Program-made: the position numbers and the translations under genes | The notes under the pieces: model-generated | What the model saw: the letters and a program-made list of their open reading frames with translations, nothing else | Told to the model about the DNA's origin: nothing | Databases searched by the model: none | Part shown: positions 3,030 through 10,955 of the stretch, one piece after another | How positions within the stretch are numbered: the stretch's first letter is position 1 | Layout: each line of letters begins with the position of its first letter | IMG/VR virus record: IMGVR_UViG_3300034062_005176 | Coordinates: 1 to 26,606 of that record | Strand: one strand, 5' to 3' | DNA length: 26,606 bases | Origin: a virus

Positions 3030-3264
3030 GGCTGCTCTTCTTCAGTTCCATGATGGCATCCATCATCTCTTGGTCGCGGTTCATGATCTCATGAAACGTG
3101 AGGCCGTCTTCATTCACAGGCCGGTCTGCAATGACAGCCCATGCGTCTTCAAGAGCCTGAACCCTTACGTCCATGATCAGCCTGCTGATGGCAAACGCCT
3201 GCTCGGCATTCACCACCATGCCGGTGGCTTCGTAAACCTTGTCAGCCCATTCTTCTGCGGTCAT
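3022..3264 (-). CDS. small helical phage protein, unknown
   Basis: 80 residues from the ATG at 3264, chosen because it overlaps the upstream TGA as ATGA, the coupling used throughout the operon; a longer GTG form to 3285 is possible. Residues 3-12 (AEEWADKVYE), 21-40 (EQAFAISRLIMDVRVQALED) and the end predict three helices. Basic C-terminus (KKSSHV). Function not recognised. Confidence 0.6.
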   Translation of the reverse strand: MTAEEWADKVYEATGMVVNAEQAFAISRLIMDVRVQALEDAWAVIADRPVNEDGLTFHEIMNRDQEMMDAIMELKKSSHV

Positions 3265-7728: not shown

Positions 7729-8136
7729 ATGAAGCCAGTATATCTAGTGGTCTATGGCGAGCCAGCCAGCAAGGCGAACAGCCGCAAGCTGGTCCTCTTC
7801 GGTAACCGGCCCGCGTCGATCAAGTCGGACAAGGCCAGGGGCTACGCTCGGGACTTCGTCCTTCAGGTGCGGGCGCTCGATCCCTTGATGGAGGGCGAGC
7901 TACGCATGGATCTCTGGATCTACTACGCCAGCCAGCGCCCCGATCTGGACGAGAGCCTCATCCTCGATCTGCTCCAGGACAAAGTCTATAAGAACGACCG
8001 TCAGGTCAGGGAGCGGCATGTCTATCACATGCTAGACAAGGCAAGCCCCCGCGTGGAGATCCTCATCCAGCCGCGCGACGTTGACGCTGGGGCAGAAGAA
8101 CTAGCCCGAGTGCGCGCCATGTATGGGAAGAAGTAG
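7729..8136 (+). CDS. rusA: RusA-like Holliday junction resolvase
   Basis: 135 residues from the ATG at 7729; an upstream in-frame GTG at 7714 is possible, and neither has a clear ribosome-binding site. The pattern Y-G-E-P-A-S-K-A-N-S-R near the N-terminus, R-P-D-L-D-E-S-L-I-L-D-L-L-Q at 70-83, K-N-D-R-Q-V at 88-93, and S-P-R-V-E-I-L-I at 106-113 is the RusA signature, including the acidic residues that bind metal (Asp72, Asp74, Asp80, Asp90). RusA cuts four-way junctions formed in recombination and replication. First gene of the rightward replication cluster; followed directly by a large hairpin-rich non-coding region. Confidence 0.88.
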   Translation: MKPVYLVVYGEPASKANSRKLVLFGNRPASIKSDKARGYARDFVLQVRALDPLMEGELRMDLWIYYASQRPDLDESLILDLLQDKVYKNDRQVRERHVYHMLDKASPRVEILIQPRDVDAGAEELARVRAMYGKK

Positions 8137-8805
8137 GCCAAGGTCCACGTCTCACCTTGGCTGCCTGGGATTGCGAGGCGGGGGAAGAACCTACCCAGGG
8201 CATGAGGTGCAAGTTGTCTGCACGGAGCCCTGACTATATGCAGGGTATCGCTGAGCAGATCAATACAAAATCTAGGCTGGCACACTCACACTGTAAGATG
8301 CCGATAACCTAGCGGCCTGTCGGCCAGGGGAAACCTCTTGCCTTTGCCCGGCTGATCTGGATATACCGAAAGGCGAAGGGGCCGCCCGGCAAGGCAGCCC
8401 CTTCAAACGACACCCTGCTGCTACAGGGTGGGCATAGACGCCATGTGCGATCTATCTCCCGCTTCCCCCTGGTGCGTCAAGGTGTTTCTGGCGGCAGCGC
8501 AAGCTGTCTTCGGGGGCTGCTACCGTTGCTCTCCCCTGCCACGAACAGACGCAACTCACGTCTGCGGCTCTTCGCTAAAGAGCCGAACAAAAATCCGGGT
8601 TCAGGTGGGCCATTCCTTCCCGGAGCCTATACGGTCGGCGGGGCAGCACCCCGCAGGAGGTACGGAACTACCTAGCTGTCCAGCCGGGAGTGACTCCCTG
8701 GACCTGAAGCTAGGTAGGCAGACGCCTAAAAATGTCTGCGGCGGGGCTGGGTTGGCATCCTAGCTTTGAAGGGAACCGAGTACGCGGCTGGGCCTAGGCC
8801 CGGCC
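8137..8805 (+). ncRNA. candidate large structured RNA (ornate, about 670 nt)
   Basis: No convincing gene lies in 8137-8888; reading frames there are rich in Cys and Pro. Instead the + strand holds a dense series of perfect or near-perfect helices: 8137-8144/8154-8161 (8 bp), 8162-8169/8194-8202, 8207-8211/8219-8223, 8228-8232/8241-8245, 8272-8276/8308-8312, 8340-8345/8369-8374, 8376-8382/8397-8403, 8411-8417/8424-8430, 8493-8498/8503-8508 closed by a GCAA tetraloop, 8546-8551/8559-8564, 8566-8572/8578-8584, 8638-8643/8649-8654, 8668-8677/8708-8717 (10 bp) enclosing 8678-8683/8698-8703, 8718-8723/8734-8739, and 8786-8793/8798-8805. The GNRA loop favours the + strand. Size and location in a phage recall ornate phage RNAs such as GOLLD or ROOL, but identity is not shown. 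A short CCCCT/AGGGG hairpin follows before the next gene. Confidence 0.5.
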
Positions 8806-8888
8806 CCCCCTAGTCAGGGGCTTCCAAAGTCTCCCCCAGGGGCAGACCGGAAGGCGGAAAGGCAGAGAGCTATGCTCGGAGGGGAACG

Positions 8889-9140
8889 ATGAAGCCGATC
8901 AAAGATCCTGAGTTGAAGCGTTGGTTTGCGGCGAACGCCGAAGCCCTATCGTCTGTCGGAGGCAAGGCCAAGGCCCAGGCGGTCAGGTGGGCTGCCTCCA
9001 ATAAGGAGGCGGTTGTCGAGCCGACAAAGGCGAAGGAGTATAAGCCGAACAGCAAGGCGTTCTGGCAGGGCCAGAGTTTCGGCCCGGCGTCTCCCGTCCG
9101 CAAGATTGACCCGGCAACATACAAGCCAACCAAAGATTAG
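8889..9140 (+). CDS. small basic protein, unknown
   Basis: 83 residues with GGAGGGG ideally placed before the ATG. Lys-rich throughout: KPIKDPELKRWFAANAEALS, then a helix (GGKAKAQAVRWAAS), then a proline- and Lys-rich tail ending PATYKPTKD. No family recognised; the charge suggests nucleic-acid contact. It lies between the structured non-coding region and the primase-helicase gene. A GTGTCT/AGACAC hairpin (9140-9145/9158-9163) follows its stop. Confidence 0.68.
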   Translation: MKPIKDPELKRWFAANAEALSSVGGKAKAQAVRWAASNKEAVVEPTKAKEYKPNSKAFWQGQSFGPASPVRKIDPATYKPTKD

Positions 9141-9239
9141 TGTCTAGGTCTATCGCAAGACACAACATCTAGTTCATCTAAAATCTATTGCTTGGGTGGC
9201 TGGTTGTGTGTAGTCTTCTCGTCCTTCTGGGGGAAGGTT

Positions 9240-10955
9240 ATGCAAGCCATTGAGAAAGAATACATCCTGGCAAGAGCCAAGGATGGTCAGACTAGGGTAG
9301 CCTGTCCTGCGTGTGGTCCTGACCGTAAGGCTAAGAACGACCCGACCCTCTCCATCAAGCAGGATGCGGCTGGCATTCTCTGGAATTGCCATCACTGCGG
9401 CGTCAACGGTTCGATGGGGAGAGGCGGTAAGGTGAGTGCGGTTATTCCGATCAAGACCTACACGGCTGATGAGGTGGACTTCTCCGGCCTGGACTACCTG
9501 TCGGATCGTGGCATCTCAGAAGAGACGGCCAAGTCCCTTGGCGTTTGCTCGGGGCAGAAGTTCTTCAAGAAGAGCGGCAAGGAATTGGAAGCGGTCGGCT
9601 TCCCCTATCTGCACCAGGGCCGGGTCACTGCGATCAAGTGGCGGTCGCTCTCGACCAAGGAGTTCACGCAGGACGGCTCGGCACAGACGCTGTTCCTGGC
9701 TGACCGGATCCAGCCTGGGCAAGATGTCGTTATCACCGAAGGCGAGATCGACGCGCTGTCTTTTTGGCAGGCCGGTATCCCTGCTGTCTCGATCCCTTCG
9801 GGCGCTCTGTCGGAAGGCACGGCTGACGAGACTGCCCGGCTGAAGTGGCTGTCGCATCACGACGACCTCATCAAGAAGGCAGAGAACGTCTTCCTTGCGG
9901 TGGACATGGATGGCCCTGGTCAGACCACCGCCAACGAACTGGCCCGCCGCATCGGCAAGCTGAAGTGCTGGCGCATCTCCTTCCCTGGTAGCTGCAAGGA
10001 CGCGAACGACACGCTCGTTAGTCTTGGGGCAGAATCCCTTGCCGAGTGCAAGGCGAAGGCAGCACGCTGGCCTGTCGAGGGATTGGCCTCTCCCTCTGAC
10101 TTCATGGACAAGGTCCAGACGCTCTATCGCGAGGGGCTGCCGCGTGGCGCATCGACGGGCTGGCCTTCGGTGGATGAGGTGTTCACCCTCAACCCTGGCA
10201 GCCTCGTCATCGTGACCGGCACGCCCGGCTCGGGCAAGTCTCAGATCATCGACAACATCGTGATCAACGCCATGAAGCAGCACAACATGAGCGCTGCTTA
10301 TGCGTCCTTCGAGAACCCGCCGGAACTGCACCTCGCCAAGCTGATCTCTCTCAAGACCGGCAAGCCTTTCGGTGATGGGCCGACGCCTCGCATCAGCGAG
10401 GATGAGATGATGGAGGCACTGGCCTGGGTCAATGAACGTCTGACGTTCCTGACCAACGACGGCGTGATGCCTACGGTGGAGAGCCTCATCGAAAGGTTTG
10501 AGGCTGCGGTGCGGCGCTCAGGTGTGAAGCTGATAGTCGTTGACCCCTTCAACTTCATCAAGCTGAGCCAGAAGAAGGAAGGCGGCGTGGACACTGAGAG
10601 CATCAATGAGATGCTGGCTCAGTTCAAGACGTTCGCCATGCGTGCGGAGGTCACGTTCTTCCTCATCGCTCATCCCGCCAAACCTATGAACGTGGGCAAC
10701 GATTGGGTGCCGACCGGCTACTCCATCAGCGGCTCGGCCCACTTCTATAACCGTGCGGACTTCGGCCTCACCATCCAGCGCAAGCTGGACCAGACTGTCT
10801 TCCATGTCTGGAAGTGCCGCTTCCCCTGGCAGGGCCAGCTTGGTGAGGCCACCCTTCACTATGACAAGGCGACCGGCCTGTTCAACGAGGGGCAGAATGA
10901 GGATCCGGAGGACCGTCTGTTCCTCAAGGGCTTTGACGAGCAGTTCAATTACTAG
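9240..10955 (+). CDS. primase-helicase (T7 gp4/Twinkle-like)
   Basis: 571 residues from the ATG at 9240 (GGGGGAAGG upstream). Zinc ribbon Cys22-x2-Cys25 and Cys50-x2-Cys53; Toprim domain with T-E-G-E-I-D-A (Glu168) and V-D-M-D (Asp222, Asp224); RecA-like helicase with Walker A G-T-P-G-S-G-K-S (327-334), S-F-E-N (catalytic Glu358), Walker B L-I-V-V-D (Asp435) and L-I-A-H-P-A-K-P near 475. It makes RNA primers and unwinds the fork as a hexamer. Length and order match phage T7 gp4-like enzymes. No DNA polymerase gene is in this window. The gene ends 10 bases before a strong terminator hairpin. Confidence 0.93.
   Translation: MQAIEKEYILARAKDGQTRVACPACGPDRKAKNDPTLSIKQDAAGILWNCHHCGVNGSMGRGGKVSAVIPIKTYTADEVDFSGLDYLSDRGISEETAKSLGVCSGQKFFKKSGKELEAVGFPYLHQGRVTAIKWRSLSTKEFTQDGSAQTLFLADRIQPGQDVVITEGEIDALSFWQAGIPAVSIPSGALSEGTADETARLKWLSHHDDLIKKAENVFLAVDMDGPGQTTANELARRIGKLKCWRISFPGSCKDANDTLVSLGAESLAECKAKAARWPVEGLASPSDFMDKVQTLYREGLPRGASTGWPSVDEVFTLNPGSLVIVTGTPGSGKSQIIDNIVINAMKQHNMSAAYASFENPPELHLAKLISLKTGKPFGDGPTPRISEDEMMEALAWVNERLTFLTNDGVMPTVESLIERFEAAVRRSGVKLIVVDPFNFIKLSQKKEGGVDTESINEMLAQFKTFAMRAEVTFFLIAHPAKPMNVGNDWVPTGYSISGSAHFYNRADFGLTIQRKLDQTVFHVWKCRFPWQGQLGEATLHYDKATGLFNEGQNEDPEDRLFLKGFDEQFNY

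Follow-up and report, generated by a model that had tools for sequence, protein, structure and literature searches.

The resolvase–primase locus and its noncoding gap

The sequence analysed here, which we call the window, is a genome fragment (26.6 kb) of an uncultured podovirus that is distantly related to Planktothrix phage Pag-Yong1 (40% identity in the primase and 46% in the portal protein) and to Pelagibacter phage HTVC023P (39% in the portal protein). On its plus strand, a gene for a RusA-like Holliday junction resolvase (7741-8136; PHROG 140, E 1.7e-9; Pfam RusA, E 2.3e-6) is followed by a long gap, then by ORF83 (8889-9140), which encodes a short orphan protein and is preceded by the Shine-Dalgarno sequence GGAGGGG, and then by a DNA primase/helicase gene (9240-10955; PHROG 239, E 2.4e-92). 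We found no credible gene across 8137-8888, in agreement with a preliminary description that had reported none from 8137 to 8805. ORF83 is lysine-rich, and its codon-position GC resembles that of the neighbouring genes; it was found only in the window virus, and none of our searches, a GTDB scan included, returned a relative. An assembly error at the gap is unlikely, because a second contig (3300042516_003435), which is 99.84% identical to the window across 8.7 kb, carries the gap unchanged. In most of the distant phages that we examined the order is exonuclease, RusA and primase, with about 35-260 nt between the latter two, so that the long noncoding block upstream of the primase gene looks like an acquisition by the clade comprising the window phage and its sisters.

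The preliminary description had proposed that 8137-8805 is a single giant RNA, principally from its density of stems. The stems that it named are present: its extended 10+6 bp hairpin corresponds to 8670-8715 (P5, below), and its GCAA-closed hairpin, GGCAGC-GCAA-GCTGTC, lies at 8493-8508, where it spans a junction near 8498 and falls outside the conserved core of the RNA described below. In addition, 8137-8888 folds better than dinucleotide-shuffled sequence, with z-scores of -2.9 on the plus strand and -3.2 on the minus strand. The density itself, however, was not beyond that of ordinary sequence in this phage. Counting hairpins of at least 6 Watson-Crick pairs with loops of at most 14 nt, we observed 10 in the gap, as compared with 6.6 +/- 2.1 (maximum 12) in equal-size tiles from the rest of this GC-rich genome; likewise, z-scores of -2.5 or lower were given by 11 of 116 background tiles of 220 nt from the rest of the window. 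Neither hairpin density nor fold energy alone is proof of an RNA in such a genome, and, the tile statistics being unexceptional, a comparison with relatives was needed. As described below, that comparison distinguishes RNA genes from coding sequence in GC-rich phages where hairpin density and folding z-scores fail to do so; the statistical argument of the preliminary description thus fails, while its conclusion mostly holds.

The gap consists of three parts, 8137-8327, 8328-8498 and approximately 8524-8888, and the region first delimited is therefore composite. The first part, a hairpin behind RusA plus a spacer, is unremarkable; its 8-bp hairpin, located 3' of the RusA stop codon (8137-8161; strand not assigned), recurs behind RusA in two of the sister phages introduced below, L003 and L006. 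The second part stands apart from the third and has hairpins that are more compatible with the minus strand, which removes the 5' half of the gap from any single giant RNA. The third part is a plus-strand RNA that extends beyond 8805, the end first proposed. A structured RNA is thus present, as indicated by compensatory changes relative to a second phage, but it is about 365 nt long and not 670 nt.

Conserved structure in the 8524-8888 segment

We designate this third element W-RNA (8524-8888, both ends approximate; core 8565-8855; plus strand). When a 16-mer from the window was used to scan 2.9 million viral contigs, we recovered, in addition to the window's own virus and chance hits in coding sequence, contig 3300037470_000209 (L089), and a second scan with an independent motif again returned only these two viruses besides chance hits. 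W-RNA is accordingly known from two sequences, and its homolog in L089 occupies 546-910. Two colinear matches between them were detected by blastn, and three in a later five-record search (E 6e-5, 1e-4 and 5e-4). The two phages have in common a series of motifs, CCGAAC, CCATTCC, GCCTATACGGT, GAAGGGAACCGAGTACGCG, GTCAGGGGCT, ACCGGMAGGCGGAAAGG and GAGCTATG; measured from CCATTCC in the window and in L089, respectively, CCGAAC is at -27/-30 and later motifs are at +161/+169, +203/+206, +243/+244 and +257/+257. We found no single reading frame shared by the two phages: the short matches were scattered over several frames, as against a single match of 112 residues in a coding control. Searches of GenBank phages and plasmids with the gap by blastn gave no real match; Brevundimonas phage Kikimora was rejected as a carrier, as its match covers 23 nt and the other motifs are absent, and an Acetobacter plasmid match proved to be a single GC-rich hairpin (E 0.06).

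The L089 terminase is 48-49% identical to terminases of HTVC010P-type pelagiphages. The L089 RNA lies downstream of a small ORF and upstream of a methyltransferase-like gene, the terminase gene and the portal gene (the terminase was named from searches, the others from translations and position). Location inside a replication operon, as first described, is therefore correct for the window phage but not characteristic of the RNA, the L089 copy of which precedes packaging genes.

Several tests indicated conserved structure. On a sequence-only MAFFT alignment of the two RNAs, RNAalifold gave z-scores, relative to class-preserving column shuffles, of -7.4 on the plus strand and -7.8 on the minus strand; coding controls (40 segments of 400 columns, 44-54% identity) gave -1.0 +/- 1.3, with a minimum of -3.6. 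When the structure was predicted from the window only, 36 of 69 changed pairs were kept in L089, as compared with a mean of 26 and a maximum of 35 among 1000 nulls. Helices matched by hand (13 segments) comprised 35 unchanged pairs, 5 with one-sided and 28 with two-sided changes, and 1 broken pair, such that 33 of the 34 altered pairs could still form in this structure-aware comparison. The hand alignment is biased toward structure, and these counts are to be read jointly with the unbiased tests.

Alifold did not discriminate between the strands. We assigned W-RNA to the plus strand from three observations: the ratio of G-U to A-C cells in the hand-matched helices is 6:0, the MFE structure of the window is conserved on the plus strand (p 0.009) and not on the minus strand (p 0.6), and window 8499-8888 folds with z -2.9 on the plus strand versus -1.3 on the minus. 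The main point against this assignment is that the L089 RNA, taken alone, folds better relative to shuffles on the minus strand (z -2.4) than on the plus strand, where it is unremarkable (z -0.9). Also, in the converse test the L089 MFE structure was not kept in the window on the plus strand (p 0.65) and was weakly kept on the minus strand (p 0.03). In the aggregate, we have high confidence in 8524-8888 as a conserved structured RNA. A phage of a different lineage retains its predicted fold while retaining little of its sequence, and on this comparative evidence W-RNA is probably a functional phage RNA.

The modelled architecture is a domain closed by helix P1 that encloses hairpins P4 to P10, with hairpins P2 and P3 before it and an invariant GAAGGGAACCGAGUACGCG stretch. 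All of the following elements are on the plus strand. P2 (8565-8585; CGGCTCT/AGAGCCG) has 6 pairs identical in L089 and 1 changed on one side, from T-A to T-G. P3 (8594-8624) consists of P3a, TCCGGG/CCCGGA, and an inner P3b, AGG/CCT; 4 of its pairs are changed on both sides and 0 are broken, and its apical loop carries a conserved CCATT. P1 is formed by GCCU-AUA-CGGU (8625-8635) with ACCG-GA-AGGC (8846-8855) and closes the central multibranch domain; because it is invariant in the two phages (GCCU-AUA-CGGU with ACCG-GM-AGGC), it is supported by its position and not by covariation. P4 (8638-8654; GCGGGG/CCCCGC) has 2 two-sided changes, and its outermost pair is broken in L089. In the extended hairpin P5 (8670-8715), the outer helix ACCTAGCT/AGCTAGGT is replaced in L089 by GATGCGGT/ACCGCATC, with two-sided changes in 6 of the 8 outer pairs. 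P6 (8718-8739; GCAGAC/GTCTGC) is changed on both sides in 4 of 6 pairs, and its loop, GCCTAAAAAT in the window and GCCCAAGAAA in L089, is kept in length. P7 (8746-8764; GCTGGG/CCTAGC) and P8 (8788-8803; CTGGG/CCCGG) each show 4 two-sided changes and 1 one-sided change; between them lies GAAGGGAACCGAGTACGCG (8768-8786), a stretch of 19 nt that is identical in L089. P9 (8807-8820; CCCCT-AGTC-AGGGG) has 1 one-sided change, from C-G to T-G, and P10 (8831-8845; CT,CCC/GGG,AG, with one C-C mismatch) has 4 two-sided changes.

Sister phages, the 8328-8498 element and K-RNA

Among the sister phages that we compared from IMG/VR, the primase of L002 is 98% identical to that of the window phage, and those of L003/L004/L005 and L006 are 84% identical. 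The window and L002 are 96% identical in primase DNA and 88% identical across window 8137-8488. In the L003-type phages, 8328-8488 is retained upstream of primase, and the hairpin-bearing stretch 8137-8197 is retained behind RusA. RusA itself is located elsewhere in these genomes, because the segment comprising the noncoding block and primase has the opposite orientation to the sequence on either side of it. This inversion (window 8328-10955; L003 3303-5716), judged against RusA/exonuclease and ORF146, separates the window/L002 lineage from the L003/L006 lineage. In L002 we also observed 83 extra bases behind RusA (3092-3174), containing a GCGACCC/GGGTCGC hairpin and bounded by a 12-bp direct repeat, GAAGTAGGCCAA.

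The second part of the gap (8328-8498), here termed block 1, is a structured element conserved in four phages. Its alifold z-scores were -6.6 and -7.1 on the two strands, whereas primase coding segments gave -3.4 to +1.1 in the same test. The minus-strand fold was better than the plus-strand fold by 4-10 kcal/mol in all four phages, and stem mismatches were mostly A-C on the plus strand, that is, G-U on the minus strand. Its stem of 12-13 bp (8375-8404) is followed on the minus strand by CCTTTCGG, in place of which L002 and L003 have CTTTTCGG; a second hairpin, at 8411-8430, likewise fits that strand better. Possibly, block 1 is a terminator-like element (an antisense terminator) or a small RNA of the minus strand. 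Motif scans from block 1, and from its junction with the adjoining sister RNA, returned only the sister clade and chance coding hits.

Similarity between the window and all of the sisters ends abruptly at 8488 and returns at about 9175, some 60 nt before the primase start. Within the block so delimited (8489-9175, right edge approximate), the window has W-RNA and ORF83, in place of which the sisters have another noncoding element of about 430 nt upstream of primase, which we designate K-RNA (L002, 3525-3960; L003, 3465-3900; L006, 3465-3900; plus strand). In the K-RNA alignment, 19 pairs were altered on both sides, as compared with 6.6 in shuffles (none of 500 as high) and 0-6 in slid controls; as L003 and L006 share about 96% identity, the alignment is effectively one of two sequences. 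The 5' half gave alifold z-scores of -6.3 on the plus strand versus -3.0 on the minus strand. In one hairpin, TGCC-GCAA-GGCA versus GGGG-GAGA-CCCC, the stem pairs are altered on both sides and the GNRA loop is kept. The sister loci had no Rfam match at gathering or permissive thresholds, and a K-RNA motif scan of GTDB gave no match.

From these sequences, the presence of K-RNA at the W-RNA site appears to be the result of a cassette exchange. It could be argued instead that the two RNAs are one fast-evolving family and that no exchange occurred. They are similar in size and position, a K-RNA model (R3) weakly matches window 8588-8770 (E 0.006), and by eye the two share, loosely, the succession hairpin, GAACT, extended hairpin, GAWGGGAACC. 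Yet, over 17 kb of the window, R3 scores as well or better at two other places, and the register of its match is at odds with that of GGGAACC. Sequence similarity between W-RNA and K-RNA is not above that of shuffles, nhmmer gave no cross-match, and similarity to L002 ends within a few bases despite 96% identity in the primase DNA. We therefore regard a single family as unlikely, and homology of K-RNA to W-RNA as unsupported. With an exchange, the substitution of one structured RNA for another beside a primase that is 98% identical would constitute a natural experiment on the role of such RNAs.

A further candidate relative was considered in Pag-Yong1, which has an unannotated gap of 748 nt immediately 5' of its primase gene (L065, 5199-5946). 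This gap has a fold z-score of -2.2, equalled by 1 of 20 shuffles; it gave no Rfam, model or nhmmer match, is without similarity to W-RNA or K-RNA, and was rejected.

Relation to known RNAs and possible modes of action

GOLLD and ROOL RNAs assemble as homo-oligomeric, RNA-only complexes, and they are frequently, though not obligatorily, found close to tRNA genes. The preliminary description had suggested that the gap might encode one of these or another catalogued giant RNA, or else a new class. With cmscan, none of the 4227 models of Rfam 15 (GOLLD, ROOL, OLE, HEARO and raiA included) matched the window at gathering score and none was significant with permissive filters, and L089 had no match at a permissive threshold; these results speak for the second suggestion. 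Group I and group II introns were also rejected, as there was no Rfam intron match and the element lies between complete genes. ARAGORN found no tRNA in the window, which is a fragment only. GOLLD exceeds 800 nt in many members and ROOL is about 660 nt; both often occur near tRNA islands, and they belong to the larger phage RNAs without an assigned function (PMC12286853). Like GOLLD and ROOL, which occur in phages and prophages, W-RNA is large and structured; with GOLLD it shares a division into a conserved and a variable region, and with ROOL its many hairpins and the lack of a known protein partner. In contrast to both, it has no covariance-model match and no tRNA in its window, and it differs from ROOL in sequence and in its length of about 365 nt. 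K-RNA, also uncatalogued, is similar to W-RNA in genomic site, size and covarying plus-strand structure, but has other helices and no sequence similarity to it. As far as tested, then, W-RNA is best regarded as a candidate for a new RNA family within a broad kind already known, and is not GOLLD, ROOL or OLE; by analogy, it may work as GOLLD and ROOL do. Large structured RNAs of phages are a small group so far; W-RNA, uncatalogued and supported by covariation, enlarges it and is short enough for chemical probing and cryo-EM.

We slightly favour a W-RNA that acts in trans over one that is a leader, and consider trans action about evenly balanced against all other possibilities. In this proposal, W-RNA would be made within the transcript of the replication region, would fold on its own and would function in trans; its invariant single-stranded segments would most likely bind a partner, either protein or RNA, and W-RNA might serve as a scaffold, decoy or regulator. 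Trans action is favoured by the different neighbours of the RNA in L089 and by its exchange with K-RNA. We looked for a promoter for W-RNA and found none. We also considered the invariant TTGACG (minus strand of TGCGTCAAGG) as part of a promoter on the minus strand and do not claim it, as its -10 element is poor and would overlap a hairpin. More tentatively, and at well below even confidence, W-RNA may found a class of large trans-acting phage RNAs that move as cassettes between unrelated phages, the site upstream of primase being one at which W-RNA and K-RNA are swapped and do an equivalent job in infection.

A cis-acting 5' leader has to be taken seriously, and we would put its likelihood at about one third. 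Here, a helix P0 would pair the pyrimidine-rich 5' end of the RNA with the GGAGGGG of ORF83, and a change of fold or a ligand would switch translation. As in riboswitch-type and other long 5' leaders, the Shine-Dalgarno sequence lies in the predicted closing helix with a gene directly downstream: the independent MFE folds of the window and L089 RNAs both close at the predicted P0, with the Shine-Dalgarno sequence covered, and the 3' end of the RNA is Shine-Dalgarno-like in both phages, with an ATG immediately after it. This ATG begins ORF83 in the window; in L089 it begins an ORF of 11 codons, and 2 nt separate the end of that ORF from the start ATG of the following gene. However, no relative of ORF83 lies downstream of the L089 RNA or anywhere searched, and the downstream genes are apparently unrelated; W-RNA is much larger than common leaders and has no Rfam riboswitch match, and P0 pairs poorly in the alignment, with at most one two-sided change. 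The 11-codon ORF of L089 (MCRHRNGAGEG; within 900-950), itself preceded by a Shine-Dalgarno-like sequence, is possibly a leader peptide.

That the hairpins work as DNA, in a replication origin or protein-binding region beside the primase gene, appears very improbable to us. The block does adjoin primase and moves with it in the L003 inversion, and fold strength is alike on the two strands; yet the gap has no iteron-like repeat family beyond chance pairs and no AT-rich stretch (its GC content is about 60%), the L089 element is far from a replication context, and a G-U to A-C ratio of 6:0 is unexpected for DNA hairpins. Chance, in the form of a GC-rich spacer with ordinary hairpins, is scarcely credible: the hairpin count and single-sequence z-scores are inside the range of the genome's coding tiles, but this reading is already contradicted by the structure conserved with L089 (z -7.4 versus the coding controls) and by the constant spacing of the motifs.

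One further structure was observed downstream of the exchanged block. A small hairpin, CCTTC..GAAGG, covers the primase Shine-Dalgarno sequence at window 9219-9240, with equivalents in L002, L003 and L006 (4 of 4 phages), and possibly serves in translational control of primase.
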